DNA of 38,740 bases from Betaproteobacteria bacterium RIFCSPLOWO2_12_FULL_68_19 (GTDB lineage Bacteria; Pseudomonadota; Gammaproteobacteria; Burkholderiales; SG8-39): contig MERP01000029.1 in assembly GCA_001772055.1 (NCBI GenBank), forward strand, positions 1 through 38,740, read 5' to 3'. Positions 23,995-24,098 of this stretch are shown here, one piece after another. Both the position numbers and the translations under genes were made by a program. Below the pieces are notes generated by a model. It saw only the letters and a program-made list of their open reading frames with translations, ran no database searches and was not told the origin of the DNA. Each line of letters starts with the position of its first letter. The first letter of the stretch is position 1.

Positions 23995-24022
23995 AAAAAG
24001 CCTTAATCTTTGGAATTAAGGC
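23995..24022 (-). terminator. Intrinsic terminator of the candidate sRNA
   Basis: Minus strand GCCTTAAT-TCCAAAG-ATTAAGGC-TTTTTCG; 8-bp perfect stem, 7-nt loop, U5 tail. Confidence 0.8.
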
Positions 24023-24064
24023 ACCCGCTCAGGGAGGAGAAGCGGGAGACGATGAACATCGTCT
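23995..24064 (-). ncRNA. Candidate anti-Shine-Dalgarno small RNA (3 hairpins, ~70 nt)
   Basis: Minus strand AGACGATGTTCATCGTCT-CCCGCT[TCTCCTCCCTG]AGCGGG-T-GCCTTAAT[TCCAAAG]ATTAAGGC-TTTTT; perfect palindrome arms, intrinsic terminator, and a sigmaE-like promoter just upstream. Confidence 0.65.
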
Positions 24065-24069
24065 AAAGG

Positions 24070-24098
24070 TAAGATGGGCCGGCCGGCGGAAAAGTTCC
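24070..24098 (-). promoter_or_regulatory. Candidate ECF/sigmaE-like promoter of the sRNA
   Basis: Minus strand GGAACTT (24098-24092) - N17 - TCTTA (24074-24070); an A at 24064 lies 6 nt downstream, the first base of the 5' hairpin. Confidence 0.4.

Follow-up and report, generated by a model that had tools for sequence, protein, structure and literature searches.

The question raised by this locus is what a short stretch of minus strand, lying between two genes of the plus strand, may encode when it reads as consecutive hairpins preceded by a sequence resembling a stress promoter. The window, i.e., the whole 38,740-nt stretch of DNA analysed, belongs to a ~1.6-Mb genome of the order Burkholderiales, assembled to 63% completeness. 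The two flanking genes are engB, encoding the YihA/YsxC GTPase (23374-23973, plus strand; TIGR03598, 209 bits for a cut-off of 124), and hemB, encoding porphobilinogen synthase (24130-25194, plus strand; NF006762, 489 bits for a cut-off of 297). A sequence-only reading had described between them three minus-strand hairpins and the promoter-like GGAACTT-N17-TCTTA, all letters and positions of which were found again by direct reading, and it had rightly left family membership open. On the latter point, cmscan returned a single match in the window, namely RF02837 (anti-hemB, also listed as Burkholderia RNA 7) at 24049-23955 on the minus strand, covering the full model (1-81) and scoring 72.1 bits where gathering requires 49.5, in the very location of the family, i.e., between hemB and engB and on the strand opposite to both. 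As such, the locus adds a member to an Rfam family already known but not characterised in function. The family name is misleading as the RNA is not antisense to the hemB gene: it stands head-to-head with hemB, transcription diverges, the hemB coding region is not overlapped, and the only overlap is with the last 17 nt of engB, on opposite strands.

Along the minus strand, the RNA comprises four hairpins. Hairpin 1 (24064-24047) reads AGACGATGTTCATCGTCT in DNA letters and AGACGAUGUUCAUCGUCU as RNA. Hairpin 2 (24046-24024), CCCGCT-TCTCCTCCCTG-AGCGGG, exposes in an 11-nt loop the anti-Shine-Dalgarno (anti-SD) motif UCUCCUCCCUG. Hairpin 3 (24022-24000), GCCTTAAT-TCCAAAG-ATTAAGGC, is continued by TTTTTCG with its five T at 23995-23999, i.e., GCCUUAAU-UCCAAAG-AUUAAGGC-UUUUU as RNA. 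Hairpin 4 (23993-23963), missing from the first description, has the arms GCCCCCGG...CCGGGGGC, is followed by a U-run (TTTTA in DNA letters) and holds a second conserved C/U loop motif, UCCCCUUU (23972-23979). The Rfam model contains neither hairpin 1 nor a conserved terminator loop; the promoter, the conserved hairpin 1 and the second conserved loop all go beyond the Rfam entry. The claim that the region has no ORF was nearly right: an 18-codon ATG frame does open in hairpin 1, yet only 8 of 113 relatives have a frame of 15 codons or more there, and a coding RNA was rejected.

The hairpins clearly exceed chance. The 70-nt RNA formed by the first three folds at -27.3 kcal/mol (z = -4.5) and the 108-nt RNA (24064-23957) at -47.0 kcal/mol (z = -6.85), none of 200 shuffles being equally stable in either case. 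In an alignment of 60 diverse copies, built with MAFFT without structure information, the 28 pairs of the four helices are formed at 91.4%, versus 82.4% upon shuffling, a percentage somewhat inflated by the helices having been taken from the window sequence; both sides change in 23 of the 28 pairs (shuffled mean 13.0) and the covariation score is 0.329 versus 0.164. None of these three values was reached by any of 500 shuffles, and sliding the partners by one column lowered pairing to ~51%. The four-hairpin structure is thus conserved among relatives, including hairpin 1, where compensatory changes affect all six pairs (93.3% of cells paired) even though the Rfam model leaves it out. Covariation also concerns 7 of the 8 pairs of hairpin 3 and 6 of the 8 of hairpin 4. 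Unlike hairpins 1, 3 and 4, which covary freely, hairpin 2 hardly varies across the order in its stem (99.7% paired; alignment columns 31-53, with 57 to 60 of the 60 copies identical at each pair) or in its loop. Such invariance points to a constraint on more than the fold, and the identity of the stem bases seems to count, be it for extended target pairing or protein binding. Across the family alignment, GU/UG cells outnumber AC/CA cells (90 against 25), from which it follows that the minus strand is the RNA, as had been proposed.

Respective to its length, the RNA was first delineated as a 70-nt unit ending on a textbook terminator at hairpin 3. At this locus, five T follow hairpin 3 and four T follow hairpin 4; across the family, the T-run after hairpin 3 has a median of 3 and reaches at least 5 in 7 of 60 copies, against a median of 6 and at least 5 in 51 of 60 copies after hairpin 4. 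In Burkholderia cenocepacia, where the gene order hemB-sRNA-engB is the same, the family member ncS04 of strain J2315 was found to be 105 nt long by dRNA-seq, Northern blot and 3'RACE (PMC5688073) and resembles the present RNA in sequence and structure along the whole model. Laid on the genome of B. cenocepacia NCTC13227 so as to end in the T-run of hairpin 4, a 105-nt transcript starts within ~2 nt of the base of hairpin 1, in agreement with the +1 first proposed. Taken with the family T-runs, this fit points to a unit of ~108 nt here (23957-24064, minus strand), probably ending after hairpin 4 (~23957) rather than at 23995, with hairpin 4 as the probable true terminator and hairpin 3 lying inside the RNA, where any termination would be leaky. 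The three hairpins of the shorter unit are therefore real, with a fourth omitted, and a 70-nt form ending at hairpin 3 may still occur because of the local T-runs, i.e., five versus four. Among family members, a short transcript associated with Hfq is documented for ncS04 only, by its copurification (PMC4603805 Table 4; PMC5688073). The literature located assigns no function to ncS04 or anti-hemB.

Upstream of hairpin 1, the minus strand reads GGAACTT-N17-TCTTA at 24098-24070, i.e., a -35 element (24092-24098) and a -10 element (24070-24074) of a predicted sigma-E (RpoE, ECF) promoter; GGAACTT is the -35 element of sigma-E promoters in Escherichia coli, the strongest of which include those of porin-repressing sRNAs (PMC2893595). 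When 110 distinct upstream regions were scored, on a scale to 10, for a GGAACTT-N15-18-TCnnA-like site, 93 reached at least 8 and 79 scored 9-10, a level attained by 1.4% of dinucleotide shuffles. The site (GGAACTT-N15-17-TCnnA-type) lies in register, 46-58 nt before hairpin 2, in 91 of the 110; its letters show an invariant AAC with dominant TC and A, though these sites were preselected by similarity and are not independent evidence in this respect. No hemB is present within at least 1.2 kb upstream in 22 of the 110 copies, and 16 of these 22 keep the site in place, so the promoter belongs to the sRNA and not to hemB. In the 1.6-Mb genome, the pattern GGAACTTN{15,17}TCNNA occurs once, at the sRNA, against nine occurrences of the reversed pattern. 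The genome encodes RpoE (TIGR02939, 322.7 bits, above cut-off). In other Burkholderiales, the same promoter pattern precedes RpoH-like and OpgG/MdoG-like genes, the products of which were identified by eye. In E. coli, rpoH and opgG/mdoG are classical sigma-E targets. Within the family, sites before rpoH are weak only, the strong one standing before the RpoH-like gene of a more distant genome. Overall, the RpoE/ECF-like promoter first recognised by its letters is supported by conservation, and the use of sigma-E in this organism is predicted from it. As a side observation, GGAACTT-N16/17-TCTNA recurs upstream of rpoB in several genomes of the same genus, followed by a G+C-rich inverted repeat, a match that may be the chance conservation of a leader element. 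An ECF-type sigma gene other than rpoE (TIGR02937 superfamily, over cut-off) also lies at 20750-21250 on the minus strand, ~3 kb from the sRNA, and its orthologues, judged by contig and position, are likewise neighbours of the sRNA in several genomes of this genus.

The loops suggest how such an RNA would act. Loop 2 is complementary to a strong SD region, with CCUCCCUGAG in 57 of 60 copies, and loop 4 reads UCCCCUU in 46 of 60 copies, those of Burkholderia not included. In Xanthomonas, sX13 uses its C-rich loops to repress mRNAs whose start regions are G-rich (PMC3771888), which makes pairing between loop and SD the likely mechanism here. Taken together, the account we consider probable, without being assured of each of its parts, is that of a trans-acting RF02837 RNA of ~108 nt with its own promoter, from which RpoE would most likely direct transcription under envelope stress; the loop UCUCCUCCCUG, and probably also the loop UCCCCUUU, would then pair with the SD regions of a set of mRNAs, the translation of which would be stopped, probably with the help of Hfq. 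Porins were considered as specific targets: their mRNAs pair better than SD-matched genes (p = 5e-4) and none of 300 shuffled loops does as well as the true one, yet two other anti-SD-like sequences give an equal gap, and so the signal reflects the strong SDs of porins rather than this RNA. The enterobacterial sigma-E-dependent sRNAs MicA and RybB share with anti-hemB a GGAACTT-type promoter and, presumably, the pairing with start regions, whereas they bear no relation to it in sequence or structure. For an Rfam family with no function and a misleading name, the sigma-E-type promoter indicates the conditions in which the RNA should be sought; it also suggests that mRNA silencing under envelope stress relies, in betaproteobacteria, on an sRNA unrelated to the enterobacterial ones.

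The same RNA with the same loop mechanism might instead be constitutive, i.e., transcribed by a housekeeping sigma factor or by an ECF sigma factor other than RpoE, and serve as a general tuner of translation. This alternative is unlikely, though it stands well ahead of the others. In B. cenocepacia, ncS04 is strongly expressed at a level unchanged across growth conditions and is not induced under any condition of Table 2 of PMC5688073; moreover, in Burkholderia sensu stricto the GGAACTT site is found at none of seven loci and a TATGAT-type sequence takes its place at all seven. Also in favour of this alternative, the genome encodes several ECF-type sigma genes, including the one at 20750-21250, and no GGAACTT-type site was found before rpoE within the family, where RpoE autoregulation would have provided a positive control. 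Against it, the window and most of the order retain the canonical RpoE-type GGAACTT-N16/17-TCnnA in register, and no comparable housekeeping promoter is described at these loci. The Burkholderia members differ from the present locus in lacking both the GGAACTT promoter and the UCCCCUUU loop, and loss of the promoter in Burkholderia sensu stricto would explain why ncS04 is not stress-induced, which we infer to account for the strongest fact against a stress role. Stress induction, as first proposed, is plausible from the promoter, the only measured member, ncS04, being uninduced in a lineage without it. In Paraburkholderia (15 of 17) and Pandoraea (3 of 3), GAAACTT-N16/17-TCATA lies inside TATATCATA, a sequence which might be readable by either sigma factor. 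In a more tentative reconstruction, to which we give slightly less than even credence, anti-hemB would be the ancestral sigma-E-dependent sRNA of betaproteobacteria, an order-wide counterpart of MicA/RybB, unrelated to them in sequence and with two anti-SD loops, the promoter of which was handed over in Burkholderia from RpoE to the housekeeping sigma factor via TATATCATA intermediates (GAAACTT-N16/17-TCATA plus TATCAT) as in Paraburkholderia and Pandoraea.

It is very improbable, by comparison, that the RNA is toxic or growth-inhibitory in the manner of RF02278 (toxic small RNA) through a global block of translation. The anti-SD loop is indeed present, and overexpression of RF02278 RNAs attenuates growth (PMC5688073, citing a result in E. 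coli). Even with E allowed up to 10, however, the region gives no RF02278 match. The growth-inhibitory role suggested at the outset is unsupported here. S17S, a conserved betaproteobacterial sRNA closely similar to RF02278 RNAs, left exponential growth of E. coli unimpaired (PMC11722255), while the B. cenocepacia anti-hemB member is abundant during ordinary growth. A whole-genome search with RF02278 also returned no match, a result of little weight as the control genomes gave no signal either. RF02278, to which S17S of Bordetella is similar, is like anti-hemB betaproteobacterial and endowed with C/U-rich loops complementary to ribosome-binding sites; it differs by having two hairpins, ~60 nt and an unlike sequence. 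Tandem stem-loops exposing C-rich motifs are likewise common to sX13 and to the alphaproteobacterial ar14 and cuckoo/CcsR RNAs, with the sX13 and ar14 models falling far below gathering here (20.9 of 50 and 21.7 of 58.8 bits, respectively), a similarity of architecture. The CcsR RNAs are transcribed from RpoH promoters together with a DUF1127 gene (PMC10253847), whereas anti-hemB has engB and hemB for neighbours on the other strand and its own promoter of another type.

Among 61 near relatives, 53 carry an RF02837 match above cut-off, as do 134 of 200 sampled Burkholderiales genomes. The 23-nt sequence of hairpin 2 recurs unchanged in at least 120 public stretches, and the matches listed are nearly all betaproteobacterial. 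Of the 110 distinct copies scanned, 88 lie next to hemB and divergent from it, as would suit an element acting in cis on hemB, whether antisense or leader, in keeping with the family name, or else an element of the hemB or engB mRNA read from the plus strand. This explanation has hardly any likelihood left, with 22 copies devoid of an upstream hemB (the promoter kept in 16), several copies lying 3' of engB on its strand or distant from both genes, a wobble-pair asymmetry demanding the minus strand, and an RNA running away from hemB and covering only the end of engB; plus-strand and hemB leader elements were rejected on the asymmetry together with the hemB-less copies. At eight loci, the sRNA is found 3' of engB on the same strand, with hemB not nearby; in such engB-downstream copies, occurring in some families, orientation relative to engB is switched and the promoter retained. 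Two genomes hold the sRNA in tandem at a spacing of ~180 nt, at a site remote from hemB and engB, and have one more copy next to hemB, which amounts to a natural instance of the family expanding.
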